Positions 160 to 21,147 of a DNA stretch of 26,591 bases are shown here, one piece after another (position 1 is the stretch's first letter; every line of letters starts with the position of its first letter). Source of the stretch: a virus. The notes beneath the pieces were generated by a model. It saw only the letters and a program-made list of their open reading frames with translations. It ran no database searches and was not told where the DNA came from. The DNA is taken from IMG/VR virus record IMGVR_UViG_3300023257_000098, positions 1 through 26,591 of that record, one strand, 5' to 3'. The translations under genes and the position numbers were made by a program.

Positions 160-167
160 AGGTTATT

Positions 168-437: not shown

Positions 438-535
438 AAGCAGAAGATTGCGTTTTAACTATGTGTGCTAATAGAAATAAGAAATGCAAAAGATGCAATT
501 TTTATAACAAGTTTAAACTAAAGGTATTAAAATGA
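434..535 (+). CDS. small Cys-containing protein (33 aa), unknown
   Basis: Starts in an ATGA overlap with the previous gene and ends in an ATGA overlap with the next. It contains four Cys (positions 6, 11, 18, 21), including a CKRC pair, in a Lys/Asn-rich chain, which could bind a metal. Translation is probably coupled. No function is recognised. The double overlap is the main support. Confidence 0.4.
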   Translation: MKAEDCVLTMCANRNKKCKRCNFYNKFKLKVLK

Positions 536-699
536 CTAATCGTAAATACAGAAGAAACTCTGACAGGGCACTTGCTCACGCAATGGAACATCTTGAGAAC
601 GCTAAACAGAACATTAGCCTTGCAGAGAACATTATCCGCAAAGCACAAGAAGATAGCAAAAAAACCAAGAGGAAAAATGATGAGAATAATAATAAGTAG
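532..699 (+). CDS. small helical charged protein (55 aa), unknown
   Basis: Starts in the ATGA overlap with the preceding ORF. Residues 10-45 form one amphipathic helix rich in Ala, Asn, Lys and Glu, and the tail is very basic/Asn-rich. Its last 20 nt overlap the start of the outer-membrane barrel gene and contain that gene's Shine-Dalgarno, which suggests translational coupling. No family recognised. Confidence 0.45.
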   Translation: MTNRKYRRNSDRALAHAMEHLENAKQNISLAENIIRKAQEDSKKTKRKNDENNNK

Positions 700-1309: not shown

Positions 1310-1425
1310 TGGCAGATAAAGCTAAAAATCTATTGAAATCATTGTTTGAATTGCTGAATGGTAAGGATAAGGACGGCAAGAAGAAAGACCGCCGGATAAT
1401 GATTAAAAAGACTATAAGGTGGTGA
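1309..1425 (+). CDS. small basic protein (38 aa), unknown
   Basis: The ATG shares its A with the barrel gene's stop (TAATG), so translation is probably coupled. The chain has a short hydrophobic helix (residues 7-17) followed by a strongly basic Lys/Arg/Asp tail. The next ATG lies 1 nt beyond its stop. No family recognised; support is packing only. Confidence 0.4.
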   Translation: MADKAKNLLKSLFELLNGKDKDGKKKDRRIMIKKTIRW

Positions 1426-1426
1426 T

Positions 1427-1612
1427 ATGGAAAATTATTGTAAAAATTGTAAGCATTTAAACCCTCCGAAATCAATGTTTCTTGGGTTGGGTTATTTTTG
1501 GGGAGAATGTAAAAAGAAACATAAGAATTGGAAATGGGACGAAGATGTTGGTTGCCCTGACTTTAAGCGTAGTGGATGGAGAACCTTTCGGAATGGAGTG
1601 ATGCAGGAATGA
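1427..1612 (+). CDS. small Cys-rich zinc-ribbon-like protein (61 aa)
   Basis: Four Cys in the pattern CKNC (residues 5-8), C28 and C43 suggest a small metal-binding fold, with aromatic residues between. GGTG before the ATG is a weak ribosome site, so coupling to the ORF ending at 1425 is likely. Its stop overlaps the next gene's ATG (ATGA). Similar short Cys-rich proteins are common among uncharacterised phage genes. Confidence 0.5.
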   Translation: MENYCKNCKHLNPPKSMFLGLGYFWGECKKKHKNWKWDEDVGCPDFKRSGWRTFRNGVMQE

Positions 1613-1821
1613 AAAACGCTGACTCTGTATTTAAGTATATTGTTTTGATACTAATGACATTGGGGCTATTGTTCTATTTCGTATATAGCGTAACTAAGGG
1701 TAAAATATTAAACTTACCTGATGTATTGATAGCGATATATATGATTGTGTTCCAGTATTTCTTTAGACGGGCTCCAAAAAAGGAGGCTAATAATGGAGAT
1801 GAAACAGTGGCTAAAGGGTAA
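1609..1821 (+). CDS. two-span membrane protein, holin candidate (70 aa)
   Basis: Two hydrophobic segments (about residues 9-28 and 36-53) are separated by a short basic turn and followed by a charged cytoplasmic-type tail, the layout of small class II-like phage holins that make lesions in the inner membrane. The frame is open to 1576, but ATG 1609 is preferred: it overlaps the previous stop and GGAGTG lies just upstream. The end overlaps the next gene by 29 nt. Holin identity is inferred from topology and neighbours. Confidence 0.5.
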   Translation: MKNADSVFKYIVLILMTLGLLFYFVYSVTKGKILNLPDVLIAIYMIVFQYFFRRAPKKEANNGDETVAKG

Positions 1822-2071
1822 CATTGCTTCGACTGTAATAAGAATAGCTGCAAGCAAGGTAAATATGTTTGAAGAAGGTAAGAAAGCAGACGCCTTAATG
1901 GATAAGCAATTAGGCAAAAAAGCAAGCGAAAAGATACAAAGGGGTACGATCGTAAGTCTTTTGCTGCAATTTATCCGAGGCTTATATGCAGAAAACCCGG
2001 ATGCGTTCGCTGCTGTATTGAGGATAGAAGCAGACAATATTAAGAAAAGTAAAAAAAAGAAAGGAAAATAA
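1793..2071 (+). CDS. small basic helical protein (92 aa), unknown
   Basis: The start is set by a strong AAGGAGG box at 1779-1785; ATG 1799 is an in-frame alternative. The protein is helical, with an amphipathic stretch (residues 45-65) and a C-terminal run of lysines. It overlaps the putative holin gene by 29 nt in another frame. It could be a small virion or lysis accessory protein; no motif decides. Confidence 0.5.
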   Translation: MEMKQWLKGNIASTVIRIAASKVNMFEEGKKADALMDKQLGKKASEKIQRGTIVSLLLQFIRGLYAENPDAFAAVLRIEADNIKKSKKKKGK

Positions 2072-2072
2072 T

Positions 2073-2357
2073 ATGAACTGGTTTAAAAGATTATGGAATA
2101 AGTTTCTGAGGATATTCAAGAGCTTCATAGATGCGGCATTGCCTATTCTGATACAGATTTTGATAGCGGAGTTTAAGGACTTTGTGCTTAACGTAGTAGG
2201 CACTCTCCAGAAAACAGACCTGAGTAATGAGGAAAAGCGTAGCCAAGCATTTGTGGATATAAAAGCAGAGGCGATCAGAAGGGGCAAGTACATTCCAGAC
2301 AGCATAATTGATATATTAATCAATCTTGCGCTGAACTATATAAAGAATAACCTTTAA
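2073..2357 (+). CDS. LLH-holin-like small protein (94 aa)
   Basis: The N-terminal part (residues 1-45) is amphipathic to hydrophobic. The second half (EEKRSQAF..., then IIDILINLALNYI) resembles the C-terminal cytoplasmic part of phage LLH-type holins (holin superfamily 6), where a charged helix with an EKR segment is followed by a hydrophobic helix. A Shine-Dalgarno-like AAAGGAAA lies upstream. The hydrophobic segment around residues 21-42 is interrupted by charges, so a canonical TM span is not clear. It could instead be a structural accessory protein. Confidence 0.4.
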   Translation: MNWFKRLWNKFLRIFKSFIDAALPILIQILIAEFKDFVLNVVGTLQKTDLSNEEKRSQAFVDIKAEAIRRGKYIPDSIIDILINLALNYIKNNL

Positions 2358-2370
2358 GGAGAATCTTGAC

Positions 2371-3051
2371 ATGACATTATCTCAACTTCGACAAACGGGT
2401 CGCGCTCTGATACCAGGAGCAAAAGTATCTGTGGTCAAAAACGCATCTTTTAACCTGATACTCAATGAAGGTGTAAAGGATATAGCTGCTTATACAGTAT
2501 GTTTAAAGGCTAATAAGAAATTCAAGATAACGGCTGATAAGTACGAATACAGCTTATCTTCTTTTATAGGGGATTATGTTGCAGTCGATTCTCCGGGTTT
2601 GTGGTGGTATAATGGCTCAAAGTGGAAACAACTCTATCCACGTACTCTTAAATGGTTTGATATAAACCGTCCTAACTGGAGAGATTTAGGCTCTGGCGAT
2701 CCGCTCTACTATTCAATAGACTCGGATATTGTAACCCTATCGCCTACACCAGACACGACACTTGCCAGTGGTTTGTGGCTTTATTACGGGTCTGCTCCTG
2801 TTTCGATGTCAAAGGACTCGGACTATCCTTTTTCGGGAAGTAAAACTGAACTGACGCATTTGTCGATATTTGATTATTCGATAATAGCCTTTGCCAGATG
2901 GAGAATACTACCTATGCTGTCTAATGATGCTAATGCGGATAAACTGTACCAGGAGTATAAATTAGAGCGTGAGGAGAAACTGAATATGTTAAAACGCAGG
3001 AAAGATATAGCCAATTCAGCGGAGATGCGTCTAAGGGGGCCTCGCATATGA
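2371..3051 (+). CDS. phage head-tail adaptor protein (SU10-adaptor-like)
   Basis: This 226-residue protein matches the layout of podoviral/SU10-type adaptor proteins that dock under the portal ring. It has an N-terminal helical region with a hydrophobic helix (FNLILNEGVKDI), a central beta part rich in aromatic residues with WWYNGSKWKQL and a Y-Y-S-I strand, and a C-terminal long charged helix. AAGGAG lies 9 nt before the ATG. The gene ends in an ATGA overlap with the nozzle-like gene, the usual adaptor-nozzle order in short-tailed phages. No portal or coat gene is in view to confirm. Confidence 0.65.
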   Translation: MTLSQLRQTGRALIPGAKVSVVKNASFNLILNEGVKDIAAYTVCLKANKKFKITADKYEYSLSSFIGDYVAVDSPGLWWYNGSKWKQLYPRTLKWFDINRPNWRDLGSGDPLYYSIDSDIVTLSPTPDTTLASGLWLYYGSAPVSMSKDSDYPFSGSKTELTHLSIFDYSIIAFARWRILPMLSNDANADKLYQEYKLEREEKLNMLKRRKDIANSAEMRLRGPRI

Positions 3052-5498
3052 GGAAGCGTATATTTATAGGACTATTATTGATGGCGGTTGCATTGCCTGT
3101 TTATGCACAGGATAAGTTCTTTGTCTTACAGGACTTCAGTAAAGGCCAGAATAGTCATATAAGCCCGCTAAACACTCCTGACAACCAAGCAGTAGAGGCC
3201 CAGAATGTACGCGTAAACAAGCGTTATGGGGCCATAGGCAAGCGCGAACCACTGATTACGGCCTGGGACACGGGTTCAGCCACAAACAACTCTCTACACC
3301 GTTATTACAAGAGCGACGGCACCTTTAAAACGATCATAGCCACCGGTACGACCTTAGATATAGGAAACTCCACAGATACCGGCACAACGAACATAGATAC
3401 AGCCCTGACAGATGGCAAGAGGTGGACATTTGTTACCTTTAAAGACAACGCTATAGGAATGAATGGATTTGACAATCCTGTAAAATATGATGGCGAAACC
3501 GTTACCACGGCCAACACAGACGGCGCGAGAACGGTAGGAGAGCTTTGTGCTGATTTAGGCGCGCCTTTCGCGGAACTCAACACCGGCACTGACCTAACCG
3601 CGGCAAAGTGGTATCAGTATAAAATGATGTATTTAGTAAGCGCTGTAGGGTACTATTCCAACGCTCGCAGTAACCCTATCCTAACGGGTGCTGAGGTATA
3701 CAATATAAGCCTCACAGACATCCCTATAGGCCCTTTAGGGACTACGGCAAGGTATGTATACAGAAACGTAGGAAGTGCATCTAAGGCCGCATGCAAGTCT
3801 AATACAACCTATTACCTTGCGAGTACGCTTGCAGACAACACCACAACGACTTTAAACGACACAGTATCAGATTCTACTCTGGCAGGGAATACAGCGTGGT
3901 CAACTGCGGCTAAATTCAATGCCTCCCCGCCCAAAGGTAAATATTGTAACATAAATAAGGATCGGCTATGGATTGGCGGGAATACTACATATAACTCAAG
4001 GCTTTATTTTTCTGATGACAGTAACCCGGAATATTTCGATCCTGACTCGTTTGAGAGAATAAGGCCGAATGACGGAGATGAGATAACATTCCTAGAGACA
4101 TTTATGGGGACGCTTACCATAGGAAAAAATAATAGCATCCAAAAATATTACACAGACGGTTCATTCACGACAGACTGGTATGTAAGTGATCCGTTCTCGT
4201 TTGTAGGCTGTCCGGCACCTTATTCAGCAGACACATCACCGATAGGGATAATTTATCTATCCAGAGACGGCCTGTATACCTTTGACGGGGTACGATCTAA
4301 GCTCATATCAGACGCAGTAACCCCAGAGATAAGAGACATATCCAAAACAAATATAGCCAAATGCGCAGGTATATATTTTAATAACGAATATAGACTAGCA
4401 TATAATTCTTATGAGTCAGGGGTGACCAACAACAACAGAGTGCTATTGTACAACCTGATCAGAGATTCATATGTGCTAGACACAATAAACGTAAACTGTT
4501 GGACGGCTTTCAACGCTAGCACGGACACGGGAGTTATATATTTAGGATCGTCTCTCGCAAACGGTTTGGTACAGGGCGCATCATACCTAGAACCGTTGTT
4601 AAATATTCGGTATGAAAGCGAGTTTGATTCGGGAACGTATGACGACACCAGGGTATATGGAACTGATAGTTATCCTATAATAGAGATAGGGTGGGATTGC
4701 ACGATAGACACCTGGCTGACAGAATTACAGACTAAAGATGCCAATATAGACACGCTAGACGAGATATTGACTTATCTGCCTGATGCAAAAATAGACAGGC
4801 CGGACAAGGATGGAACGTGGACAAGCGAAGTTTATAATATTGATGCAGCAGCACTAGACAAATTATACTGGAATGAATCTCTTGGAGCGTACGGCGACAT
4901 AACCTTCCAGGTAAGATTAGATTCCGACTCTGATATGACAGGCATAACATGGAACACAGCGGTTACAAACCAGAACGGCGCAGATTTATCTAGTATCACA
5001 GCAAATGACTATATCCAATTTAGGGCAAATTTCACTACTACCGACGAGGAATATTCGCCTACACTATACTCAGCAGACGGATATGTTTTTAGGATGATAT
5101 ACGATAAAGTAGGTTCCACCAAAGAGACATCCGTAGTAAGCAAATGGAAAACCGGATGGGTAGATTTTGATGTGGAAGGATACAAGAAATTAATTAAGAG
5201 AATCAAGGTATTCTATACCGGCACATCCGGAACCTTAACATTCAATATAAAAGCAGACGACGGAGACATAGATAGAGATATAGAAATAGATTTATCTGTT
5301 GATGCTGATTCTGACACCGAGGACGACTATACAGGCGACGAGAATCTAAAGATATATACATACCTGCCCCCGATAAACGAGGAGGAGGCCCCATCCTTGG
5401 TAAGCCAACTATTCCGTTTTGAACTTACTGAAACTGGGATTGTTGGATGGGAAATTCAGAAAATAGAAATACTATACGAAGTACAGGAGTTATATTAA
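3048..5498 (+). CDS. tail nozzle / stabilisation-like protein with N-terminal signal peptide
   Basis: After residue 25 the 816-aa chain has the opening of podoviral nozzle/stabilisation proteins (KGQNSHISPLNTPDNQAVEA then N-V-R-V and R-Y-G-A-I-G-K-R). A beta-propeller-like body with repeated aromatic strands follows (for example YLSRDGLYTFDGVRSKLI), as in T7 gp12/P22 gp10-type proteins that extend the tail tube. The first 20 residues form a textbook Sec signal peptide (MRKR, hydrophobic core, V-Y-A cleavage motif), which is odd for a virion protein assembled in the cytoplasm. ATGA overlap with the adaptor gene fixes the start. Function is inferred from order and fold-like sequence. Confidence 0.65.
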   Translation: MRKRIFIGLLLMAVALPVYAQDKFFVLQDFSKGQNSHISPLNTPDNQAVEAQNVRVNKRYGAIGKREPLITAWDTGSATNNSLHRYYKSDGTFKTIIATGTTLDIGNSTDTGTTNIDTALTDGKRWTFVTFKDNAIGMNGFDNPVKYDGETVTTANTDGARTVGELCADLGAPFAELNTGTDLTAAKWYQYKMMYLVSAVGYYSNARSNPILTGAEVYNISLTDIPIGPLGTTARYVYRNVGSASKAACKSNTTYYLASTLADNTTTTLNDTVSDSTLAGNTAWSTAAKFNASPPKGKYCNINKDRLWIGGNTTYNSRLYFSDDSNPEYFDPDSFERIRPNDGDEITFLETFMGTLTIGKNNSIQKYYTDGSFTTDWYVSDPFSFVGCPAPYSADTSPIGIIYLSRDGLYTFDGVRSKLISDAVTPEIRDISKTNIAKCAGIYFNNEYRLAYNSYESGVTNNNRVLLYNLIRDSYVLDTINVNCWTAFNASTDTGVIYLGSSLANGLVQGASYLEPLLNIRYESEFDSGTYDDTRVYGTDSYPIIEIGWDCTIDTWLTELQTKDANIDTLDEILTYLPDAKIDRPDKDGTWTSEVYNIDAAALDKLYWNESLGAYGDITFQVRLDSDSDMTGITWNTAVTNQNGADLSSITANDYIQFRANFTTTDEEYSPTLYSADGYVFRMIYDKVGSTKETSVVSKWKTGWVDFDVEGYKKLIKRIKVFYTGTSGTLTFNIKADDGDIDRDIEIDLSVDADSDTEDDYTGDENLKIYTYLPPINEEEAPSLVSQLFRFELTETGIVGWEIQKIEILYEVQELY

Positions 5499-5499
5499 G

Positions 5500-8400
5500 A
5501 TGATGAAATCAATAGCAATATTATTATCTATTATTTTATGCACATCAGCCTATGCAGGGGACTACCTTACCGGCTTTGACACCGATAAAGACCTGCCCAT
5601 TCTTAACGAACATCTTAGGAAGATAGACCAGGCCCTATTATATGGTAGAGGTAGATCATCATCCACTGATGATACTTTAGGGTATTTGGACGAAACCCTA
5701 GAAGATTTAGCACTGACTTCCATTCGAGGGTGGGGGCAAGATATGACGTTTAGTGCTACTGATAATGACACGGCAGCTTGGACGTCTGGGACGATTACTA
5801 TGTCCGACGGTACAAATACTTACAGCATCAGCGCAGGTAACACCGGGGATATGACGGCACTAACATATATTTATTTAGACACGGGCACTTCTTCAACCAT
5901 ATTGCAAACGACTACAACTGCGTCAACAAGCGTAGGCGGTGATAAGATTCTAATAGGAGTAGCAGAAGATGTATCAGATGTCACGAAGTACGCTACATAT
6001 CAAGTTTTTGGTGGAGCGGGTGGAGTAGGTGGAACGCTTATAGGGGCTGATAACATAGCAACTAATACGCTCACGGCTAACGAAATTGCAGCAAATACTA
6101 TAACCGCTGCTGAAATAGCAGCCAGTACGATTACGACTGACTTGATCGCAGCTAATACAATAGTAGCGGGCGATATATCTGCCGGAACTATTACTGGTAC
6201 GGAAATCACAGGTACTACATTGTCCGCTATATATGCTGATCTAGGAATTATAACTGCAGGTTCTGTAACAGGCATTACGGGCGATTTGGGTGGTTGGAAT
6301 ATGGTGTCAGGATATCTATACAGCCTTCAAAGCGGAACGCCTACTTCTGTACCTAATGATGGACTGGTACTAACTTCAGGTGATGCGTCCGTTACTTGCT
6401 ATGAGGACTCTGCTAAAAGGTTAGAGTTAGGCTACCTCTCTGCCGGGGTGTATGGTCTAAGAATATACGATACAGGTGGAAGCAATGTTGTTTATGAGGT
6501 GTCAGACACGCAACAAGTAATAGGCGGATGGACTTTTTCCGATACGAGTCTAAGCGCAGGCACAGACGACGACTATATAGGATTGATTCCTGGTGTAGGC
6601 ATACAAATGGGTGATTCTACCTTTGCTGATGCAGAATTTAGCGTGACTAATGCCGGGGTTCTTAAAGCAGTATCAGGAACAATAGGCGGATGGACTTTAG
6701 GATCATCAACATTATCGTCTACAAACCTTACTATAGATAGTGGTAATGAGTTGATCAAGAGTAATAATTTTGTGACAGGAGCATTAGGAAAAGGTTGGCA
6801 GATAGATAACAATTGGGCTGAATTCCAGAATGTATATGCTAGAGGAATATTGAGATCTACCGTGTTTGAATATGAAACTATATCAGCAGTTGGTGGTACC
6901 GTACTGGTATCGCATGATGCAGATAAGCTCAATGCAGACATGGGCGCTAATGATACAGATACGGCAATGGTAACAGAGGGAAATGTTACATTCGCAGTAG
7001 GGGATTTTTTAAGAATGAAAGCTCTCACATCCACTGGAGTGGACGACGAATGGATGGAGGTTGCAACTGCCACTGATGCAGAGAATTATGTTGTTATAAG
7101 AGATAAGGCAGGAAGTTATGCAGATGGCTCAAATCCAGAATGGACTACAGGAGCAGCTATAGTAAACTTTGGACAGAACCTAGACGGTGGTATTTTAATG
7201 ACGGCCTCTGAAACTAACTCTCCGTTTATAGATGTATATACAATAGATGCTACCCCTTGGGATAGTGGAATAACAACTCGTATGAGGATGGGTAATCTTA
7301 ATGGTTTCTTAGGGTATTCAACAGATTTATACGGGATAGCGATAGGCGAATCTGACGCATACTTAAAATATGACCCCACAAATGGATTACGGATTAAAGG
7401 TACTATAATAGTAGAGAGTGGCTCAACAGGTATGGTAACAACATTCGCACAAGATGCAGTTCCTACATCATTGCATATAGGCGATATGTGGATAGACACA
7501 AATGATGGGAACAAACTTTATAGAGCTACATCCGCAGGTGATGACCAAATAGGCGGTGGTGAATGGATAGAGGTTCAGGACGATGCGATAGCAACGGCGC
7601 AAACCACAGCAGATGTTAAATCAAAAGTATTCAGGCAGAGTGCTGTGCCTACGGCTGTTTCAGTAGGTGATTTGTTTATAGACACAGATGACTATAAATT
7701 ATATAGGGCAACCAATATAGGTGACGACGCAATTACCGCAGGTGAATGGGAACTCTATGACGCTGCACAAGCAACAGGTTGGTCTTCTAGCTCTGATTCG
7801 ACTAAAATAGACGGTGGAGATATATACACTAATTCAGTTGTGGTGGCGGGGTTGGCCTCTGCTGTAACAGATAGAATGTTTGATACGAGCGCATATTCAA
7901 ATAATATACAAGCTTGGGCTCATGCTTCTGACGTTACTCTTATAGACGGTGGAGATATCTATACCAATACAGTCACGGCTACTCAAATAAATGTGTCTCA
8001 ACTAGATGCTCTTACAGTTAATACGGGTTCACTTAATGTTGATGAATATATAAAAAGTGGTCAGACTGCCTATAATACGGGTAGTGGTTATTGGTTGGAA
8101 TATAACTCTGGAACACCTAGATTTTCTATTGGCAATGGTAGTACAAATTCACTTACTTGGAATGGCACAGCACTTACAGTTAGAGGAACATTAAATGCAG
8201 ATGATTTGACAGCCGGTACTATATCAGTATCTAGATTTACCGACGCAAGTATTACTGCTGTTAAAATGGCAGCAGGTACACTTGACCAAATAGTATTTTC
8301 AGACGATGCAGAAGTTGCATTTGATACTGGGAATACTGCTGATAGCGATATTTCTTTTAATCGTTTTTATAAGTCAAATGCTTATCAAAATTATATGAAA

Positions 8401-8637
8401 GTAGACTGTCAGGCTAAAAATAGTGCCCCTGGTGGTATCAGTATGAGGTGGTATTGTGGTAGTGCAAATTCAAGTAGCCAAACATTAAATCAAACATATG
8501 CTACTTTTTCAAAATCGGTAGATATTTCTGGATTGGCGGTAGATACTTGGTATTATTATGGTTGGAATACACCATCTGCTGGTCAGAATACAACCACAAC
8601 ACAAAAGCAAGCGGGCGTAGTTGTAACTTATTCTTGA
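5500..8637 (+). CDS. large tail fibre / tail-tip protein with modular repeats
   Basis: The 1045-aa product begins with a signal-peptide-like stretch (cleavage motif A-Y-A at 17-19). Residues 189-238 hold five decapeptide repeats of the NTITAAEIAA type, common in phage fibre shafts. GGW modules occur near residues 264, 342 and 396. Two tandem modules start near 649 and 711 (AVPT...GD.WIDT...KLYRAT...GDD...GEW), and a paired IDGGDIYTN motif follows. Fibre-like composition (Thr, Ser, Gly, Asp) runs throughout. It probably mediates host binding or forms the tail tip. AGGAG upstream sits 11 nt from ATG 5500 and 14 nt from ATG 5503. The C-terminal beta domain shows no recognised enzyme motif. Confidence 0.75.
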   Translation: MMKSIAILLSIILCTSAYAGDYLTGFDTDKDLPILNEHLRKIDQALLYGRGRSSSTDDTLGYLDETLEDLALTSIRGWGQDMTFSATDNDTAAWTSGTITMSDGTNTYSISAGNTGDMTALTYIYLDTGTSSTILQTTTTASTSVGGDKILIGVAEDVSDVTKYATYQVFGGAGGVGGTLIGADNIATNTLTANEIAANTITAAEIAASTITTDLIAANTIVAGDISAGTITGTEITGTTLSAIYADLGIITAGSVTGITGDLGGWNMVSGYLYSLQSGTPTSVPNDGLVLTSGDASVTCYEDSAKRLELGYLSAGVYGLRIYDTGGSNVVYEVSDTQQVIGGWTFSDTSLSAGTDDDYIGLIPGVGIQMGDSTFADAEFSVTNAGVLKAVSGTIGGWTLGSSTLSSTNLTIDSGNELIKSNNFVTGALGKGWQIDNNWAEFQNVYARGILRSTVFEYETISAVGGTVLVSHDADKLNADMGANDTDTAMVTEGNVTFAVGDFLRMKALTSTGVDDEWMEVATATDAENYVVIRDKAGSYADGSNPEWTTGAAIVNFGQNLDGGILMTASETNSPFIDVYTIDATPWDSGITTRMRMGNLNGFLGYSTDLYGIAIGESDAYLKYDPTNGLRIKGTIIVESGSTGMVTTFAQDAVPTSLHIGDMWIDTNDGNKLYRATSAGDDQIGGGEWIEVQDDAIATAQTTADVKSKVFRQSAVPTAVSVGDLFIDTDDYKLYRATNIGDDAITAGEWELYDAAQATGWSSSSDSTKIDGGDIYTNSVVVAGLASAVTDRMFDTSAYSNNIQAWAHASDVTLIDGGDIYTNTVTATQINVSQLDALTVNTGSLNVDEYIKSGQTAYNTGSGYWLEYNSGTPRFSIGNGSTNSLTWNGTALTVRGTLNADDLTAGTISVSRFTDASITAVKMAAGTLDQIVFSDDAEVAFDTGNTADSDISFNRFYKSNAYQNYMKVDCQAKNSAPGGISMRWYCGSANSSSQTLNQTYATFSKSVDISGLAVDTWYYYGWNTPSAGQNTTTTQKQAGVVVTYS
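6064..6213 (+). repeat. five tandem 30-nt units encoding a fibre-shaft decapeptide
   Basis: Five consecutive 10-residue units follow the pattern [N/S/G]-T-[I/L]-[T/V]-x-x-x-I-x-[A/G] inside the fibre gene. The units diverge at nucleotide level, so this is an old protein repeat rather than a recent expansion. Similar repeats form beta-helical or stalk parts of phage tail fibres. Confidence 0.75.
7444..7770 (+). repeat. two tandem fibre modules with the GD-WIDT-KLYRAT-GDD-GEW pattern
   Basis: Module 1 starts at 7444 (F-A-Q-D-A-V-P-T) and module 2 at 7630 (F-R-Q-S-A-V-P-T), 186 nt apart. Both carry I/V-G-D, IDT, KLYRAT, GDD and GEW in the same order. This is an internal duplication in the fibre protein, of the kind seen in phage tail-tip proteins. 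Confidence 0.7.
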
Positions 8638-8671
8638 TAGTAATATAATTAAACAAAAAAAAGGAGCTATA

Positions 8672-10081
8672 ATGAAAAGATTATGGATAGTGTTAATGAT
8701 TTTAAAGTTTTGTTTTAAGGCGATTAAGAGTAAGGTGAAAACTAAGATGATAACCACAGCTATCAAACAACTGAAGATTTTCAATTCTGTTGTCCTGCTT
8801 ATTCTTAATAGAGCCAATAGGATATTTAATACCTTTATGGTGAACTCTCTCTTTTTTTGTAAGGTATCTATCAAGATGTTTCTCCATTACAAGACGATGT
8901 TCAGCAACATAACCGCTTCCATTACAGAAAGGATGCTCAGACATTTTAATAAATACATATCCATTTTGGATAATGTGTCCACCTTTCCGACTCCGAATTT
9001 TCTTGCCTTTACGAGAAAGACTCATTTTCAATTTAGTTGCTTGAGAATGTTTTTTGCCAATATGAGCAATACCAAATTTTGTGCGTATTTTTTTAGACCA
9101 TTTTTTACCTTTGTTCCAAGCAATTTGTCCTTTTTTAAAAGGCATAACATCCTCCAAATTAAAAAGGCGACTTTCAGTCAGCTAAAGAAAAAACGGTTGT
9201 TTTTTCAAGACCTACTCATCGCCCATTTTAAACATAAAAAATCCGTAATTTCTTTAGCTACTATAATTATAGCATTATCTATATCGTTGTGTCAAGTAAA
9301 TAATGGATACTGTGTCGAAAACTGGCGAAATGGTGACGGTGCTGAAACTGTTTTAGGCTCAATAAATCCGGGTACAATAGATAGTGCTATATACGATAAT
9401 ATCGTAGCCCCATTAGATAACTTTTTAGCAGATGGCAGGTTTGGATGTAAACTTGCTTACAGTTCAGCCTCTGAATTAACCGTAGGTATAGGCTCAGTAG
9501 TATGCTCTAATACCTCTGGCTCGATAAGGTTAATGGCAAGAAACTCATCCGCCACTACGGTAGATTGGGATGATATTGATACAGGTTCTGAGGCGGCAAG
9601 CACTACATATTATGTGTACGCAGTTATGAGTGCGGTATCAGATACTACCTTTACTATTAAGGTATCAGAAAGCTCGTCACTTCCGTCGGGAGTTACTTAT
9701 TATTTAAGATTAGGGTATTTTACTAATGATTCAGATAGCAATATAACAAGCATAGTAGATGATAGGGATTCCGTTATACCTTCAGGTGTAATAGTAATGT
9801 GGTCAGGCACGACTAGCGATATTCCTACAGGGTGGGTGCTGTGTGATGGAGATAACGGAACGCCTGATTTAACCGATAGATTTGTCATCGGCGCGGGTAA
9901 CTTAGCTACTCCAGGGGCGTCAGGCGGTGGTACTATCGGAGGAACGGAGAGTTCTTTAACCTGTACTGCTACTGCTGCTACAGGAGCAGAACTTAGGGGC
10001 GATCCAGGCTATCATCCAATATTTACAGTAAGCAATGTAATTAACCCTTACTATGCATTAGCGTATATACAAAAGCTATAA
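8672..10081 (+). CDS. collar-domain tail-tip protein; 5' end invaded by antisense HNH gene
   Basis: The last 100 residues match the phage tail-collar/receptor-binding tip pattern: IPSGVIVMWSG, IPTGWVLCDG, GTPDLTDRF, a Gly-rich turn, and final YYALAYIQKL. The middle is beta-rich fibre sequence (about residues 215-365). Residues 187-215 look like a signal peptide (KHKKS then a long hydrophobic core), yet no ATG precedes them. The only good start is ATG 8672 with AAGGAG, giving MKRLWIVLM followed by 170 residues that are simply the reverse strand of the HNH gene and its leader. The real translated product is therefore uncertain: a 469-aa protein with a junk insert, or weak initiation near 9190-9290. 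Confidence 0.6.
   Translation: MKRLWIVLMILKFCFKAIKSKVKTKMITTAIKQLKIFNSVVLLILNRANRIFNTFMVNSLFFCKVSIKMFLHYKTMFSNITASITERMLRHFNKYISILDNVSTFPTPNFLAFTRKTHFQFSCLRMFFANMSNTKFCAYFFRPFFTFVPSNLSFFKRHNILQIKKATFSQLKKKRLFFQDLLIAHFKHKKSVISLATIIIALSISLCQVNNGYCVENWRNGDGAETVLGSINPGTIDSAIYDNIVAPLDNFLADGRFGCKLAYSSASELTVGIGSVVCSNTSGSIRLMARNSSATTVDWDDIDTGSEAASTTYYVYAVMSAVSDTTFTIKVSESSSLPSGVTYYLRLGYFTNDSDSNITSIVDDRDSVIPSGVIVMWSGTTSDIPTGWVLCDGDNGTPDLTDRFVIGAGNLATPGASGGGTIGGTESSLTCTATAATGAELRGDPGYHPIFTVSNVINPYYALAYIQKL
8702..9145 (-). CDS. HNH homing endonuclease (copy 1), antisense in a tail gene
   Basis: The 147-aa product starts FKKGQIAWNKGKKWS, followed by a basic DNA-contact region (residues 10-56). An HNH core runs from 83 to 123 (EHRLVMEKHLDRYL, HH at 102-103, then DNRIENL). 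This is the NUMOD-HNH layout of free-standing phage homing endonucleases, which cut DNA to spread their own gene. ATG 9145 is preferred over an upstream TTG at 9157 because GGAGG (minus strand, 9151-9155) lies 5 nt before it. It is the only minus-strand gene in the window and has its own promoter and structured leader. It is related to copy 2 at 20674-21147. Confidence 0.85.
   Translation of the reverse strand: MPFKKGQIAWNKGKKWSKKIRTKFGIAHIGKKHSQATKLKMSLSRKGKKIRSRKGGHIIQNGYVFIKMSEHPFCNGSGYVAEHRLVMEKHLDRYLTKKERVHHKGIKYPIGSIKNKQDNRIENLQLFDSCGYHLSFHLTLNRLKTKL
9161..9259 (-). ncRNA. structured leader RNA of HNH copy 1 (interleaved helices A and B)
   Basis: Reading the minus strand, helix A pairs 9259-9243 with 9196-9180 (17-nt arms, 11 perfect pairs, a two-base mismatch, then 4 pairs). 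Helix B pairs 9224-9219 (gggcga) inside A's loop with 9170-9165 (tcgcct, one G-U) beyond A's 3' arm. The order A5'-B5'-A3'-B3' is that of an H-type pseudoknot, or of two alternative folds. Five T follow B, then GGAGG and the HNH ATG. The expected transcription start coincides with the first base of helix A. The same design precedes HNH copy 2. Confidence 0.6.
9266..9295 (-). promoter_or_regulatory. sigma70 promoter for HNH copy 1
   Basis: On the minus strand TTGACA (9295-9290) and TATAAT (9271-9266) are both perfect consensus, with an 18-bp spacer. TG one base upstream of the -10 makes an extended -10 (TGCTATAAT). The predicted start is near 9259. On the plus strand these bases encode the hydrophobic core of the tail-tip protein's signal-like segment. 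Confidence 0.75.
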
Positions 10082-10096
10082 AAAAAGGAGAATAAT

Positions 10097-10789
10097 ATGG
10101 CTATAAGTGTAAATTTACCAGATTTTAAAACAGACCCTTATTTTAAGAAATCGCAAGACCTGTCATATACTACAGGCAAGGGAATATTGGGAGGTGAATT
10201 GCCTGAGTTTTATCAAGGCATGGGGCAGACAAATTCTAAACAATTCCAGGATATGCTTGCCTTAGTAAACAGAGATACTGCCACTGCGGTAAACGAGAAC
10301 TTAGTCCGTAGGAATATCAAGGGTGGAGTAGGTCTATCGGCTATCGCTAAAGCAACCGCAGACGCTACTACCAATCTATCCTGGACAGACTACCAAAAAG
10401 CCGCAGGAGAAAAACAGTCCTTACTCGGCACAGGGTTAGACACTATCTCTGGTGTTAGAGGCGCAGGGTTACAATATGCAGGACAAGAGAATCAGTATGG
10501 TATGCAGGGTGCAGGACTTCAATTACAAGCTGACCAATTTAATGAGAATTTAAGATTAAAAGAACAGGAAAGAGAAGATGCTAAGAAAGCCAGTAAGAAT
10601 GCTATGTGGGGAAAAATATTAGAGTCTGGAATCGGGGCTCTTGGCACGATCGGTGGAGCTATGATAGGTGGGCCTGCAGGCGCTATGGTAGGTGGAACAT
10701 TAGGTTCTGCCGCAGGTAAAGCAGCGAGTGGCGCAACAACCAGGTCAACGCCTAAACAATATGCGTGGGGTGGAGGATTTCCTCGCTAA
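10097..10789 (+). CDS. internal virion / ejection protein with glycine-zipper membrane segment
   Basis: The 230-aa protein is helical and Gln/Ala-rich in its centre (residues 45-170), with YAGQENQYGMQGAGLQLQAD. It ends with a Gly/Ala zipper at about residues 180-210 (IGALGTIGGAMIGGPAGAMV), able to insert into membranes. This resembles the smallest ejection proteins of podoviruses (T7 gp14, P22 gp7/gp20 type), which form a channel for DNA entry. It is first of three genes upstream of the giant lysozyme protein, matching the small-medium-large ejection-gene order. AAAGGAG lies 6 nt before the ATG. Confidence 0.65.
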   Translation: MAISVNLPDFKTDPYFKKSQDLSYTTGKGILGGELPEFYQGMGQTNSKQFQDMLALVNRDTATAVNENLVRRNIKGGVGLSAIAKATADATTNLSWTDYQKAAGEKQSLLGTGLDTISGVRGAGLQYAGQENQYGMQGAGLQLQADQFNENLRLKEQEREDAKKASKNAMWGKILESGIGALGTIGGAMIGGPAGAMVGGTLGSAAGKAASGATTRSTPKQYAWGGGFPR

Positions 10790-10800
10790 AGGAGAAAACT

Positions 10801-11556
10801 ATGAGCGAAAGAACACTCAGTATACTGGCAGGTATCGCAGGAGGAATTGACAAGGCAGTAACAAACCTCGTGAATATCTCTCAGGCTAAAGAAAAACTCC
10901 GTAGAGAAGATGAGGAGTTTCAGCTCAACAAAAAGGTCAAGGACGCACAGCTCAAGAAGTTAGAGTTTGAAACAAGCCCGGAGGCGATGCAACGCGAAAG
11001 GGAAGAATTTAAACAAGCCACACAGTTACACGATATGAATATGAAAGTCAAAAAAAGCCAGGTAGGTAATGCGGAATTAAACGAGCAGAAAAAGAAAATG
11101 GAGTTAGAGAAAAGCATAGACATCTATCGAGCAGGCGAACTTAATACACTGCAAAGCGAAGGGTACACAGAACCAGAGGCAAGAAACATAATGGCAGGAG
11201 CAGGCACTACAGCCAGTGTAGGTGGCCAAAGAGTAGGAGTAGCTTCTCCTGAATTTGTAGAGCAATATTCTGAATATGATAGAGGTGATGCAAGAGACCC
11301 ATTCCTTGCACAGTTGAGTAGGCAAGCTCAAGATAAAACAGGAAAAACAGCAACAGAGGCAAAAAAACTGCATTATAAGGAAAAAACTTCGACTACAAAA
11401 TTATCTGATGAAGAATTTTTAGCAAGTTTATCTGATGGGGATTCGGAAGAAATATCATCAGAGCCATCTCCTTATGAAGAATACCCCAACGCGTTTTTAG
11501 AGGATGGTGTATGGAAGGTTATGCAAAACGGTAAAAAGTATCGGATTGAAGAATGA
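10801..11556 (+). CDS. coiled-coil ejection/internal virion protein
   Basis: The frame is open from 10765, but ATG 10801 has AAAGGAG 6 nt upstream and lies beyond the previous stop. The 251-aa chain is charged and helical, with a coiled-coil-like stretch at residues 25-110 (many Lys/Glu/Gln), a short hydrophobic N-terminus (SILAGIAGGI) and an acidic C-terminal region. It sits between the glycine-zipper protein and the giant lysozyme protein, in an ATGA overlap with the latter, so a middle ejection-protein role (T7 gp15-like by position) is inferred. No specific domain recognised. Confidence 0.55.
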   Translation: MSERTLSILAGIAGGIDKAVTNLVNISQAKEKLRREDEEFQLNKKVKDAQLKKLEFETSPEAMQREREEFKQATQLHDMNMKVKKSQVGNAELNEQKKKMELEKSIDIYRAGELNTLQSEGYTEPEARNIMAGAGTTASVGGQRVGVASPEFVEQYSEYDRGDARDPFLAQLSRQAQDKTGKTATEAKKLHYKEKTSTTKLSDEEFLASLSDGDSEEISSEPSPYEEYPNAFLEDGVWKVMQNGKKYRIEE

Positions 11557-14500
11557 CAAGATTAGTTCTGGATAACCAGCCAATAGCTCCCAGGAAACTA
11601 AACCTGATAGAAGAGGAGTTCTATCAAGAAGATCCTCCTTATGACCGTGTTTTAAGGTATGAAGGTGGTATAAATAGAAGAGAAGTAGGCGGTGGTGGTA
11701 TTTCCAATAAAGGTATTACTAAAGATATTTATGACTCCTATCTTAGAAGAAAAAATCTTCCTAACCAAAGCGTAGAACAAATAACTGTTGATGAAGCAAA
11801 AGATATATATAAAAACGAATTTTTTCAAATTCCTAAAATACATACTTTGCCTAAGAAAACAGGAGAACTTTTATTTGATTACGGTGTAATGTCAAATCCG
11901 AAGAGAGCCATTAAAACGCTTCAAGAAGTAGTTGGAACAAAGTCAGATGGCATGATAGGAAACAAAACGCGTAGAAAAACAGGTGAATATATTAACCAGC
12001 ATGGAGAAAATAAGTTATTAGATAATATTTTAAAAAATCGTGAAGCACATCACGCAAAGTTGATTAAAGATAATCCTGATAAGTATAAAGAATTTGAGCG
12101 AGGGTGGCAGAACAGGATTGATGATTTAAGAGAAAGTTTTGATATAAGTTCTCTTAATCCATTTAAAGTAAGTGAAGCATACGCAGGACAAGGCCCAAGA
12201 TTGGTTTTAGATGAACCTACTGGCCCAAGATTAGTATTAGATGAGCCTGGAAAATCTGTTGCACAAGAGGGCAGAGAAATGGCCACCGAAGCAGGTAAGG
12301 CTTCTCTTAGAGGCTTTGAGGGGTTGTTTGCAGGTTTGGGGGCCGCTACATACTGGATGGGTGAGAATATAGCAGAAGGCATACCATCAGACGTGGCAAA
12401 AGCCCTTACTCCGGGGGTGCAGTTGCTTCCTAAAGGTAGTCCTGAATGGCAGAAAAATATCCAAGAAAAAGTAGGTAATAAGATAGCCAAATGGGGGAAA
12501 AATGCTTATTCATTTTGGCGCGAAGAATCTCAAAGAGGCATTGAGGCTCCAGATATAGAAACATTTAAAGGTAGTTTTATACAAAATCCTTCATGGACAA
12601 GGGCGGTTGCTGTTGTTGCAGAGGCAATTCCATCACTTGCAGGTGCTACAGTAATAGGTATTGCTACTGGAAATCCTTTAGCTGGTGCAGCCACATTAGG
12701 CTTGATAGAAGGTTCTGGGCAGTATGTGGAAGCAAGACAAGCAGGTAAAGACGTTGTTCCTGCTAATGTAATGGGTGGTTTATCTGTTGTAGGAACAACC
12801 ATATTAGAGGTTCTGCCTTTAACTCGTTTCGTTAAAGGTGGCGGTGGTAAATTAGGCAAAGATATGTTCTTAGGGGCTATCCAGGAGGGCGGAGAAGAAG
12901 TTTTACAGGCATTATGGCAGAACCTTATAGCAAGAATAGGATATGATAAAACAAGAAATTTAACGGAAGGTATGATAGAAGGCTTTATCGGTGGGGCAGG
13001 TTCTGGTGGTGTTTTAGGTGGACTCACTTCAGGTAGAGGTATAAAGACAGATGGATTAATAAGAGATGCTCTCGATAAAGGTGTTTCTCCACAAGATATA
13101 AATGCTATGCAGGAAGCTGTAAAAAATCAGATAGTAAATAATGCTGACGAGATAGAGAGCAAACTGGAAAAATCCGCTATAGATGAGTCAGGAAAGTATG
13201 AAGAATGGCTCAAGTCTCAAGTTGCTCATCGGCCTGAACTGGATGTTCCTTTACACCCGGCTCCTAAGACATCGGTAGATAAAGGAGTAGAGCAGAGATT
13301 ATTTGATACACCTGTAGAGAAACCTGTAGCAAAGCCTACGGTGCCTAAAAAGAAACAAACACTTATATCAGCAATAAAGGAACGTGGCGGATTAGGCACA
13401 GAACAGATTAAAAAAGATTACAAGTGGAATGAAGATATTAAGCAAAGTAAGATTCCAATAGGTGTATTTAAAAAAGGTGCTTCTGAATTAGACGATATGG
13501 CAGACCAGCTTCAAAATCAAGGATTACTGAAAGTCCCAGAAGATATGAACCCTGGCGATTATTTGATGCAACAACTTAAAGATGAGCAATTAAGAAATGC
13601 TGATTTGTTTGCACAAGATTTAGAGAGCCAATATGACACAGAATACGAACAATACCTAAAAGAGCAAGAGGAGGCAGGATATGGACAAGATGAGATTAAG
13701 CAAGCTGAAAGAGAGCTTGAGGCCGATCTTGAAGAAGAAGTTAAAGGCGAAGTTGATACGGAAGAAATACCTGACTGGGTAACGGAAGACTTTGGTGTTG
13801 AACCTGGAAGCCAAGAAGAAAAAGACTATGAGGCAAGACGAGATGTAGCATACAGAAAAGAACTAGAGATAAAAAAAGAGTATAATAAAACCCACGCAAA
13901 TCCTACAGAAGAAGGGTTTCAGCAATGGGCAGAAACAAACTATCCTGATTTATATGAACCTAAACCTTTCGAGCAGACAAAAGAAGGTAAAGAAAAGAAT
14001 AAGAAATATTTAGACACTTTAAAGAAACAAGAGAAACCAGAACACCCCCTATTAGCAGAGTTACGCAAAACTACCTTACCTGAATATAACACCAATAAAT
14101 CTATTGTAGAAGCAGACGCATTTGTAGATGAAATCCGAGAGCTTAACCCTAAAAAAGAAGATGACCAAGTATGGATTAAGCACGGTAGTAAATACGAAGT
14201 AACAGTATCTTATCCTCATTCTTTAGGTGAAATGGGTAACGCAACTACATTTAATTATGACGAGAAACCCACAGTAGAAGATATTAAAAGAGATATAATT
14301 GAGGAATACCAAAGATTTAAAAAAGAAGTAAACGAAGAAACGGTAAGAGGTGTTGTAGCTAAGTCAGGCAGAGATGAAAACATTGAGAAAAAGATAGACG
14401 ATGTAATAGCAAAGAAGAAAAAACCAGACACCTCAATACAGGAAGGTAAAATAGATAGTGAAAGACTTTATCTTCTCAAACAAGATGCTGAATTATACCC

Positions 14501-17500
14501 TAAAGTGGAACAGTTCATAGAATCAATGGATAGAAGCGATTTAACCAAATCCCAACTCACCGACATCTGGAATAAGGCACAGGAGAAAAAAACTGAGCCA
14601 ACTCAAGATAAAAGAAAAATGCAATTAGAACTTGTAGCTGAAGCAAGACAGGCAGTTCAAGACTTTAAAGACGGTAAGGATATTACCGATAGACAAAGAA
14701 AACTTATAGAAGGATTATCTAAGCCTGATAAGTTAGTATCTCCGGGTACTGCTGAAGCAGAAACTATGAAAAGGAAATTAGGGATATCTGATAAGAAACT
14801 CCCAGAACATCTACAAAAGATAGCAGATAAAGAAAAAGGCATAGAAGATGTAACACCCAAAGGCTTTGGGCCAGGCGGCACAGCAGGTAGTTCTGCAGCA
14901 GCGAAAGTCACAGGATATGGTGGCATTATAGAATCCTCTGAAAAATCCACAAAAGAAAAAGTAGCTAAAACGGATTACGCTAAAGTAAACGAAGAAATCC
15001 CCTCAAGGGAAGAAACTAATATCATAAAGGAAGCTCTTAAAATAGTAGCGCCTGCGAGAGTATCACCTATTACTAAAAAAGGTGCTTTGATACTCCGTAA
15101 AAACATAGCCACATTAGCACATAATGACGCAATGGCGCAAGAGGCAACACAAAAAGCGCATAGGGCTTTCCAGTGGATGAACAAAGAAGATAGCCATAAG
15201 TTTATAGATGATGTGGAAAGTGGTCGTTCTACAAAGTCGGCATTACAGCCTTTTGCGGATATGCTACGAGGGCTGTTAGATGGCAGGCGAAAAAACATAC
15301 AAGACTTAGGCAAGGGGCAATTAGAGGGGTATTATGAAAACTACTTTCCACATATATGGAAAGACCCAAAAAAAGCTAAAAATATAATCTCTCAAATTAT
15401 GGGAAGGAAACGATTGGAAGGAACTAAGTCGTTTCTTAAAAAGCGTATTATTGTATCTGTCAAAGACGGATTAGAAAGAGGCTTAGAGTTAGTAAGCGAT
15501 AATCCTGTTGACCTTGTGCTATTAAAGATACACGAAATGGATAGATATATAATGGCGCAGAACATTATCCGTGACTCCAAAGAACAAGGCTTAGCAAAGT
15601 TTGTATATTCAAGAGGTAAAAGCCCTGAAGGATATGCAAGAGTCAATGACAACGCCTTTACTGTGTTTATGCCTCCAGAGATGACTAAAAAAGAGGCGTT
15701 TGACAGTATATTGGTAGAACAGTTGACAGATATAGCAAAGACTCTCGGAATAGATACAAAAAGGTTCGTAAGCATAGGTGGTAAGCGTTGGGGGTATGCT
15801 CAAGATATAGGCAAAGGTAAAGTCAGAACAAGATGGGCAGGCCCAGAGAGTGTATTAGCCCACGAGATAGGTCATGTATTGGGGTATCAGTATGATGTAT
15901 ATAATACTATCGGCAGACGCAAAGAGGGCGAAACTAAGGTTCACCTAAAAGGCAAGAAAGCAGGCGAGCAGTATTTCAAGCCCGCAAAAGAAGCTATTGA
16001 ATATCGTAGAGACATAGATAAACAATGGAGAGATTTAGCAGACGCAAGGTTCAAAGGTTCAAAGACTTCTAACTCATATAAAAATTATGTCCGCAACTCA
16101 AAAGAAAAAGAGGCTGTACTGGTAGAGGCCTTAATCCACGCACCTAAAGAGTTCCAGAGCGTAGCCCCTGATTTGTATAAATATTTCGTGAAATTTATCA
16201 ACAGCCACGCAGAGTTAAGGCCGTTACTTGACATAGAACCGTCATTAGTTTTAGGCGAGGCAGATGCAAAGATAAAGATACCTGGGTTTACTACGTTAGG
16301 TCATTATTATATGCCAGAGGATCTGGCAAGGTTGATAAATAATCACCTATCTCCAGGGTTGCGAAACGCTGACAATAAGCTCGTATCAGGTTCTTACAAT
16401 GTATTACGAGGAATGGGAAATATCTTGAATCAGGTTAATCTTTCCCTGAGTGCTTTCCACGCGTTAAATGTTACAACCGATATATGGGCTTCTACAACCG
16501 GGTTAGCGATTAAGAAGTTTTTCACAAGAGGCCAAAGAGTGCAAGGAATGATAGATGTTTTAAAAGTGCCTATTGCGCCTATTTTAAGTGTATGGGAAGG
16601 CACAAGGATCAAAAAAGCATACAGACAGCAAATGGACTCTATCAAATCCCCTAAAGTAAAAGAGATGGTAAGGACAGTAGTAGAAGCAGGCGGTAGAGAT
16701 AGAATGGACGTTTACTACTACAACGCTCAGATTAAGGCACTTGAGCAGACATTTAGAGATGTTTTAAAAGGATCTGGTGTTGAAAAAATGAAAGGTGTGG
16801 CGAAGATTCCTTTTAATGTGTTCGGAGCTACACTTGAAACACTTGCTAAACCCTTAATGCAATGGTATGTCCCTACTGGTAAATTAGGGTTATTTTCTAA
16901 ACTTGCTCAATATGAAATGGAGCGCGCGGAGTCAGGAGAGATAACTGATGAACAATTAAAAGGCCAGTTAGCGTCTGTGTGGGATAGCGTAGATAATAGA
17001 ATGGGTCAGTTGATATACGATAATCTATTTTGGAATAAAACTCTAAAAGATACTCTTATGCTTGCTATTCGTTCGGTAGGGTGGAACTTAGGTTCCTGGC
17101 GCGAATATGGCGGTGGGGCTGTTGATGTTGTAAATACTGCAGAAAGACTAAGAAGCGGCGATAAATTACTAAGCCATAAAATGAGTTATGTATTAGGTGC
17201 AAGTATAATATATTCTATATTAGGTGCTGTAATTCAGTATGTGTTGACAGGCAAGCCCCCCGAAGAGCCTAAAGACTATTTCTTTCCTAAAACAGGCAGA
17301 ATTAAGTCTGATGGCTCGCCTGAGAGGTTATCTTTGCCTACCTATGCTAAAGATGTGTACGCTTATTCGCAAAGACCATTACAGACAGTACGGAACAAGG
17401 CTCACCCCTTAATAGGGCTTTTAAATGAGCAGTTGCAAAATAAAGACTTCTTTAATGTTGAGGTATCAGATTTTAAAGACCCCTTAGTAGACCAGATATA

Positions 17501-20007: not shown

Positions 20008-20545
20008 AGTCACGAATATATTAAAAACGGCGGGGTTAATCAATTTCGATATGGTACCAAAGGACATACTCGAAAGGGCCTGCGCCTTCGGTTCTGCTGT
20101 ACACCTTGCTACTCAATTAGATGATTTGGGCACGCTGGATATAAATTCAGTAGATAGCTCTATAATGGGTTACTTAGAATCTTGGCGTAAATTCTGTAAA
20201 GACTATGACCTAAGTTTTACTAAAGATGAGATAGAGCATCGCTACACATCTAAACGAGGATTCACTGGTATGCCAGATAGAATATCAAAAGCAAAAGGAT
20301 TGCTCTTAGACATCAAAACAGGTTCTGGCGTCTATCATTCTGTTGATATCCAAACGGCAGCGTACCAGATACTAGCAGAAGAAAATGGAATAAAAATAAA
20401 AAAACGTATGTGTGTCCAGTTGATGGAAAATCGCTACAAAATCTATCCGCTTACAGAAACTTCGGATAAGAGTGTGTTCCTAAGTTGTTTGAACATATAT
20501 AATTTCAAGAAAAGGCACAATATGCTTGACAAGAGAGTGACATAA
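19994..20545 (+). CDS. PD-(D/E)XK recombination exonuclease
   Basis: The motifs of the RecB/YqaJ-like nuclease fold appear in order: GSAVH (33-37), GMPDRI with Asp95, LLLDIKTG with Asp106 and Lys108, then the HSVDIQTAAYQ helix with Gln120. At 183 aa it is a compact version. It should resect DNA ends to make single strands for the upstream ERF protein, with which it overlaps by 14 nt. The last 20 nt overlap the promoter of HNH copy 2. The end of this gene may have been altered by that insertion, since residues after about 160 look unlike a domain. Confidence 0.8.
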   Translation: MNKPRVTNILKTAGLINFDMVPKDILERACAFGSAVHLATQLDDLGTLDINSVDSSIMGYLESWRKFCKDYDLSFTKDEIEHRYTSKRGFTGMPDRISKAKGLLLDIKTGSGVYHSVDIQTAAYQILAEENGIKIKKRMCVQLMENRYKIYPLTETSDKSVFLSCLNIYNFKKRHNMLDKRVT

Positions 20546-20554
20546 TGGTATACT
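20526..20554 (+). promoter_or_regulatory. sigma70-type promoter for HNH copy 2
   Basis: TTGACA (20526-20531), a 17-bp spacer, and TATACT (20549-20554) with extended -10 TGG. It overlaps the end of the exonuclease gene. The stretch ATAATGnTATAnT is shared with the promoter of HNH copy 1. The predicted start is near 20561, the 5' base of a long helix. Confidence 0.75.
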
Positions 20555-20559
20555 CTAGA

Positions 20560-20661
20560 CAGATTGAGGAAGGCGGTATTTTTATGACTATAACAATGAC
20601 AGCTGTAGGGTTGGAAAAGCTAACCGCTTATCCTCAATCTGCCCGAAAGCTGTCATTTTTT
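20560..20661 (+). ncRNA. structured leader RNA of HNH copy 2 (interleaved helices A and B)
   Basis: Helix A pairs 20560-20577 with 20623-20641 (18 pairs, one bulged A at 20630, one G-U). Helix B pairs 20595-20604 (aatgacagct), inside A's loop, with 20648-20657 (agctgtcatt), 10 perfect pairs. A T-run (20656-20661) follows and then GGGAGG. The order A5'-B5'-A3'-B3' gives an H-type pseudoknot or a switch between A and a terminator-like B. Distance from helix A start to the SD is about 104 nt, as in the copy 1 leader. Loop stretches ATTTTTATG, GTAGG, TTGnAAAA, AACCG and GAAAG recur in both. Confidence 0.65.
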
Positions 20662-20673
20662 ATGGGAGGCTCT

Positions 20674-21147
20674 ATGAGGATAAGTAAAGAAGGAAAACCT
20701 TTTGGTTTCCAGAAAGGACATAAGCCCTTTAGCTTGCAGAGTTGCTTTAAAGAGGGTCACACTCCTTGGAATAAAGGGGAAAAAGGATTGCAAGAATCCT
20801 GGAACAAGGGAAAGAAGTTTCCTGAATATTCTGGGAAAAATAATCCTAATTGGAAAGGAGGCAGAATAGTTTTTGGATATGTTAAAGTCTATCGTCCTAA
20901 ACATCCACGAGCTATGAATGGAAGTTATGTTTATGAGCATATACTTATAATAGAAGAATGCCTTGGTAGATATATGAAACCAAAAGAAACAATACACCAT
21001 ATCAATAATAACAAATCTGATAATAGATTAGAAAACTTAATGGTGTTTATTAGTCAATCTATTCACGTAAAATTTCACAAACTACCCAATTCCGTCAAAC
21101 CAATAGAAATTGTATTTGATGGTCGAAAAAAGGAGATAATAAAATGA
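20674..21147 (+). CDS. HNH homing endonuclease (copy 2)
   Basis: The 157-aa product has FxKGH/WNKG repeats in the basic N-terminal region (residues 13-47) and GKNNPNWKGG. Its HNH core is EHILIIEECLGRYM, HH at 108-109, and DNRLENL at 116-122, parallel to copy 1. The frame is open upstream to 20545, but ATG 20674 has GGGAGG 4 nt upstream, and the upstream stretch is the structured leader. Its 3' end carries the AAGGAG of the next gene and stops in ATGA overlap with it. The cassette therefore sits cleanly between the exonuclease gene and the following early gene. Confidence 0.85.
   Translation: MRISKEGKPFGFQKGHKPFSLQSCFKEGHTPWNKGEKGLQESWNKGKKFPEYSGKNNPNWKGGRIVFGYVKVYRPKHPRAMNGSYVYEHILIIEECLGRYMKPKETIHHINNNKSDNRLENLMVFISQSIHVKFHKLPNSVKPIEIVFDGRKKEIIK

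Follow-up and report, generated by a model that had tools for sequence, protein, structure and literature searches.

Why do two small nuclease genes of one phage begin with the same kind of folded leader, and what might that RNA do for them? Homing endonucleases rank with the commonest selfish genes that phages carry; to our knowledge, the control of free-standing ones is known for a few T4-like cases only. The window analysed here, a viral contig of 26,591 nucleotides (IMG/VR record IMGVR_UViG_3300023257_000098), carries two such genes. A sequence-only reading had described before each of them a promoter, a pseudoknot-like RNA and a Shine–Dalgarno (SD) sequence, and both leaders (copy 1 and copy 2) were confirmed as described by direct reading of the sequence.

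Copy 2 lies on the plus strand (whole unit 20526-21147). Its sigma-70-like promoter (TTGACA-17-TATACT, 11/12 matches in a consensus scan; 20526-20554) is followed by the 5' part of helix A (20560-20576), consisting of a strand at 20560-20570, the first base of which is the predicted +1, and a CGG extension at 20574-20576. The U-rich loop L1 (TATTTTTATGACTATAAC, 20577-20594) is conserved in the alignment, although its conservation is somewhat overstated because part of it served as a search pattern. The 5' strand of helix B, the pseudoknot helix (AATGACAGCT, 20595-20604), and a GTAGG element conserved in the alignment (20605-20609) come next. The 3' part of helix A (20624-20641) comprises a CCG extension (20624-20626) and the strand at 20631-20641, and is joined through a conserved CYGAA (20643-20647) to the 3' strand of helix B (AGCTGTCATT, 20648-20657). 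A terminator-like U-run (20656-20661) is placed directly 3' of helix B, the SD sequence GGGAGG is at 20664-20669, and the ATG at 20674 opens a 157-residue HNH_3 homing endonuclease (20674-21147; Pfam HNH_3, E = 5.7e-9).

Copy 1 is on the minus strand (whole unit 9295-8702). The promoter (TTGACA-18-TATAAT, 12/12 matches; 9266-9295), also sigma-70-like, precedes the 5' part of helix A (9243-9259; strand 9259-9249, ACGG extension 9246-9243), the 5' strand of helix B (GGGCGAT, 9218-9224), the 3' part of helix A (9180-9196; CCGT 9196-9193, strand 9190-9180) and the 3' strand of helix B (GTCGCCT, 9165-9171), which runs into a U-run at 9165-9161. The SD sequence (9155-9151) and the ATG (9145) follow. 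The gene encodes a homing endonuclease of the NUMOD3/HNH_3 type with 147 residues (8702-9145), which matches NUMOD3 with 20.7 bits (cut-off 20.4) and HNH_3 with 15.5 bits (E = 0.013), under the Pfam cut-off. In the consensus scan the promoters of both copies were the best sites of their regions. The order of parts is the same in the two copies: promoter, helix A, U-rich loop, B5', GTAGG, a short variable stretch, AACCG, A3', CYGAA, B3', U-run, SD sequence and the ATG of a small HNH protein.

An ATG in the loop was correctly noted to stand exactly 90 nt before the HNH start codon in both copies (20584/20674 and 9235/9145), and its frame in copy 1 does stop after seven codons. An upstream ORF or leader peptide was rejected, as the frames differ and the loop ATG is missing in two relatives described below (ATTG in L169, ATA in L310); it is the RNA and not a peptide that is conserved, as had been proposed.

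The promoter and leader of copy 1 are antisense to the 5' part of a tail-fibre ORF (window positions 9160-10081), the frame of which continues into the leader, where it resembles a signal peptide (KKSVISLATIIIALSISLCQVNNGYC) and lacks a clear ATG. Several ORFs of virion or membrane type (572-1309, 3048-5498 and 5500-8637) have signal-peptide-like starts (MRKRIFIGLLLMAVALPVYAQ, MMKSIAILLSIILCTSAYA); similar starts also occur in L322:6007-7646.

For relatives, IMG/VR was scanned with patterns taken from the conserved loop pieces, and the matches were filtered on the presence of helices A and B. Many pattern matches were due to chance and were discarded by the helix test; 16 distinct leaders were retained, the window's two included. 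A covariance model built on these 16, which contained helix A and not helix B, added six leaders that the patterns had missed (L322:3073, L322:4139, L367:1876, L421, L435 and L438). The family thus comprises 22 distinct leaders in 14 viral records, two from the window and 20 further. All 22 score at least 88.9 bits with the covariance model, and the sole other match in 19 whole records scores 18.2 bits. Several records hold more than one copy: the window and G004 two each, G005 and G013 three each (one of those in G013 being identical to copy 1) and G014 four. Since most leaders were found via loop patterns, the conservation of the loops is overstated; pairing was absent from the patterns but was used to filter their matches. 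The six leaders found by the model alone vary in their loops, with GTAAA, TTAGG, GTAGA or GTATG for GTAGG and UGG/UCA for CGG/CCG. All leaders come from viral contigs of metagenomes. The phage of L003 has lambda-like tail proteins, and the window phage looks different.

At the gathering threshold of Rfam 15, no family matched a leader in the window or in 20 leader-bearing loci, and permissive Rfam scans of two leaders gave chance-level matches only. Chance-level pieces or nothing were returned by blastn for four leaders against 50,697 phage records, a collection searched by blastn only, and for one leader against plasmids. One scan of GTDB genomes gave two matches, both without the helices. 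No description of such a leader family was found in the open-access literature, subscription papers being outside the scope. The sequence-only reading had named three outcomes that would speak against it, namely a lack of further homologues upstream of HNH genes, loss of helix A or B in such homologues, or a known Rfam family. Many further homologues upstream of HNH genes were found, all of them keep both helices and no Rfam family matches. We read the leader RNA as a new family that is probably portable and cis-acting.

The order A5'-B5'-A3'-B3' is kept in all 22 leaders, so that the fold is a pseudoknot. The covariation suggested by the two window copies was borne out: both helices covary across the 22 leaders, the mean pairwise identity of which is about 58%, and do so better than in every shuffle. 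In helix A, 96.7% of cells are paired and each of the 15 pairs shows compensatory changes; none of 500 shuffles was as good, and the covariation score was 0.907 compared with 0.292 in shuffles and less than 0.2 when slid. Helix B was assessed in a fixed register, starting exactly one base after CYGAA and ending one or two bases before GTAGG. In its first six pairs, pairing is seen in all 132 cells, whereas 2000 shuffles gave a mean of 98.5 and a maximum of 111. Among the first three leaders known, six pairs were changed on both sides (2.6 expected). The foot of helix B is GGC/GCC in most leaders.

A clear -35/-10 pair with a spacing of 16-18 nt was found in 21 of the 22 leaders; the promoter of L327 is weaker (TTGCTA-17-TAAACT by eye, where the script picked a poorer site). 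Helix A begins 6-7 nt after the -10 element, in agreement with the earlier placing of the predicted start at its first base, and from this +1 the leader extends for about 105 nt. After the six-pair core of helix B, U stands at positions 2-5 in 18-21 of the 22 leaders. An A/T-rich stretch lies 3' of the U-run, followed by the SD sequence at about +11 to +14 from the B core, and the distance from B to SD is nearly constant across leaders. As in an intrinsic terminator, a GC-rich stem (the foot of B) has a U-run immediately 3'. The short loop of an intrinsic terminator (3-8 nt) is absent; about 55 nt, containing the A3' strand, separate the arms of B, and a simple terminator scan of the two window leaders did not report helix B with its U-run. 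Neither helix includes the SD sequence, which is 3' of B and the U-run and is not sequestered in the T4 manner; the promoter is upstream of the whole leader structure, unlike in hairpins of the T4 type that sequester the ribosome-binding site (RBS). No alternative partner for B3' (antiterminator) common to the family was found among the 22 leaders, and any switch would therefore use a ligand, a protein, kinetics or tertiary structure.

The leader is always in the same sense as the downstream ORF and just upstream of it. As the earlier reading had it, the place is that before a nuclease gene: a homing endonuclease, in one case truncated, follows 20 of the 22 leaders. Of the 22 ORFs, 18 gave a Pfam or PHROGs match, including a truncated HNH that scored below the cut-off, and two more were assigned by similarity, the ORFs of L409 and L312 having no Pfam match yet aligning with other leader-borne nucleases. 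These are small free-standing phage ORFs with HNH, GIY-YIG or NUMOD domains, as expected of homing endonucleases, and they belong to several unrelated types. HNH_3 and/or NUMOD3 predominate and NUMOD4-HNH_3 is present in L311 only; classic HNH follows the leader in L169, L363 and L367:1876 and as a 70-residue remnant in L355, a SegE-like GIY-YIG nuclease in L362 and phrog_3377 in L003. The leader is therefore not tied to HNH genes alone. HNH relatives from the protein search are mostly without a leader (L125 and L142 have a promoter near the start codon and no leader), so that HNH genes do not carry it in general. No homing endonuclease ORF follows the leader of L310. In L438 (1501-1950) both helices are intact, but the ORF immediately behind the leader is HTH_36/RepA_N-like and not a homing endonuclease; this arrangement is possibly an exaptation or the relic of a lost nuclease.

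The two parts had been taken for one fixed mobile unit, which they are not: nucleases are exchanged behind a leader that remains in place. No correlation was seen between leader identity and nuclease similarity (Spearman -0.04, 231 pairs). The clearest example is a shared locus after a PD-(D/E)XK exonuclease gene, which is occupied in L367 and L377 as well as in the window. There the leaders of the window and L367 show 95.0% identity over 101 nt, compared with 68% for the promoter segment and 60% for the upstream exonuclease DNA; the nuclease DNA is 47% identical, which is the level of the shuffled control, and unalignable. The two nuclease proteins share 44% identity over 73 residues only, in the HNH part. 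This profile delimits a conserved block that starts at +1 and ends near the U-run. Over 14.6 kb, contig 3300024048_000068 matches the window with 99.99% identity, but it is strongly diverged around copy 2. Comparison of window positions 38-14625 with L046 and of 20360-20666 with L367 indicates a mosaic of modules.

The leader's placement before the ORF, its fixed spacing and its persistence when nucleases are exchanged speak for a control part that acts in cis. The GC pairs of B set directly against the U-run suggest transcription attenuation; the near-constant spacing from B to the nearby SD sequence also fits translational control. The leader most likely functions, we infer, as a pseudoknotted transcription attenuator or expression gate. 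In its specific form, a portable cis-acting RNA that uses a pseudoknotted terminator or strong pause to set how much of a phage homing endonuclease is expressed, we consider this proposal to be evenly balanced between right and wrong. Helix A would form first during transcription, and B3' would then pair with B5', located in the loop of A, at the moment when the U-run is transcribed, giving with it the putative terminator or pause. Little full-length mRNA would be produced unless the fold were delayed or disfavoured, for example by a ligand, a protein or the infection state; steric block of 30S loading beside the SD sequence may contribute, and nuclease output would be low or conditional. The covarying helices, the +1 at helix A and the existence of nuclease relatives without a leader favour this explanation. 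Against it stand the two leaders without a homing endonuclease behind them (L310 and L438) and, for the attenuator in particular, the hairpin loop of about 55 nt in B, which is unlike textbook terminators. A bolder version is put forward only tentatively: phage populations might maintain a pseudoknot terminator, or an RNA switch that senses a signal, specifically for selfish DNA; any incoming homing endonuclease could sit behind it, its expression then being tied to the infection state.

A gate acting on translation only, in which 30S loading is prevented by the pseudoknot a few nucleotides upstream of the SD sequence and the U-run serves as spacer or S1-binding site, would agree with the near-constant separation of helix B and the SD sequence and with seg43 of Aeromonas phage 25, where a stable hairpin is just upstream of an unsequestered RBS (PMC2988022). 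Such a gate is rather unlikely, as it leaves the GC pairs directly against the U-run in nearly all leaders unexplained. The burial of the 5' end in helix A from the predicted +1, 6-7 nt after the -10 element, could instead make a short nuclease mRNA long-lived, as a stabiliser or exonuclease-resistant element; a plain hairpin would suffice for this and the conserved loops and pseudoknot would be superfluous, which makes it improbable. We think just as little of a trans-acting small RNA that ends at the U-run, read-through then giving the nuclease, and that acts on host or phage or binds the nuclease like a type III antitoxin RNA. The leader is compact, has its own promoter and a terminator-like end, is present in L310 and L438 although no homing endonuclease follows it there, and is retained at nuclease exchange, but it is nearly always immediately 5' of a same-sense nuclease start codon, has no tandem repeats of the type III kind and would hardly be one partner for HNH, GIY-YIG and other folds alike.

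The many conserved unpaired positions around the pseudoknot might point to a new self-cleaving ribozyme, but no known ribozyme family is matched and, with a leader that begins at the predicted +1, there would be almost nothing for 5' cleavage to release; this is very improbable. Neither the ribozyme nor the nuclease-cofactor reading has support beyond the conserved fold, and a cofactor role for nucleases of unrelated folds is unlikely. Functionless DNA recently spread by homing would account for the several copies per phage and the mosaic loci; compensatory changes in both helices at a mean leader identity of about 58% already disfavour it, and it is barely credible.

The leader can be compared with several known systems. 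In T4-like phages, RNA structures that hide the RBS restrain homing endonuclease expression (PMC2988022). The T4-type hairpins (I-TevI, I-TevII, I-TevIII, segB and Aeh1 mobE) resemble the leader as RNA structures 5' of a phage homing endonuclease that are thought to restrain expression (PMC2988022), but they are gene-specific and hide the RBS only in read-through transcripts, whereas the leader is one conserved pseudoknotted family that starts at the +1 of the gene's own promoter, leaves the SD sequence unpaired and is common to unrelated nucleases. The seg43 structure likewise ends just before the unsequestered homing-endonuclease RBS (PMC2988022), but is a single hairpin for one gene, and no pseudoknot or family is described there. 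These T4-like and Aeromonas cases are the nearest precedents, of another family and geometry. Pseudoknotted riboswitches and attenuators share the 5' position, conserved loops, pseudoknot and terminator-like U-run; for the leader no ligand is known, no antiterminator pairing is common, the output is a selfish nuclease and two mutually exclusive pairings common to the family were not found among the 22 leaders. Type III toxin–antitoxin loci also run from promoter through pseudoknot RNA and terminator-like U-run to a nuclease gene, which there encodes an endoribonuclease; the leader is a single unit and not a tandem repeat, and its genes encode DNA homing endonucleases of several folds. HEARO, or the omega RNA of IscB-type elements, also adjoins an HNH gene, but the leader, with its roughly 105 nt upstream of small HNH/NUMOD or GIY-YIG proteins, has no Rfam match.

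A structured RNA that is found with unrelated endonucleases and survives their replacement would represent a general control element for selfish DNA, and the covariation supplies precise compensatory mutants. If helix B and the U-run do terminate transcription, the terminator geometry would be unusual.

The C-terminal part of the L003 nuclease (L003:11153-11743, FTYKDIMTATKLKYDTVKKRVHYLL) resembles that of the neighbouring ORF L003:12948-14081 (FTYKDLMESLDWKYDKVKKWTITLL), which gives the impression that the nuclease gained a domain from its host phage. The presumed viral contig of L362 (L362:2413-12202, IMGVR_UViG_3300022555_003201) encodes about 22-25 tRNAs as well as a class A RNase P RNA (3617-3905, 134 bits), and its ORF at 6222-7583 looks like a CCA-adding enzyme; the tRNA array also contains several additional ORFs of GIY-YIG- or HNH-like type, without the leader.
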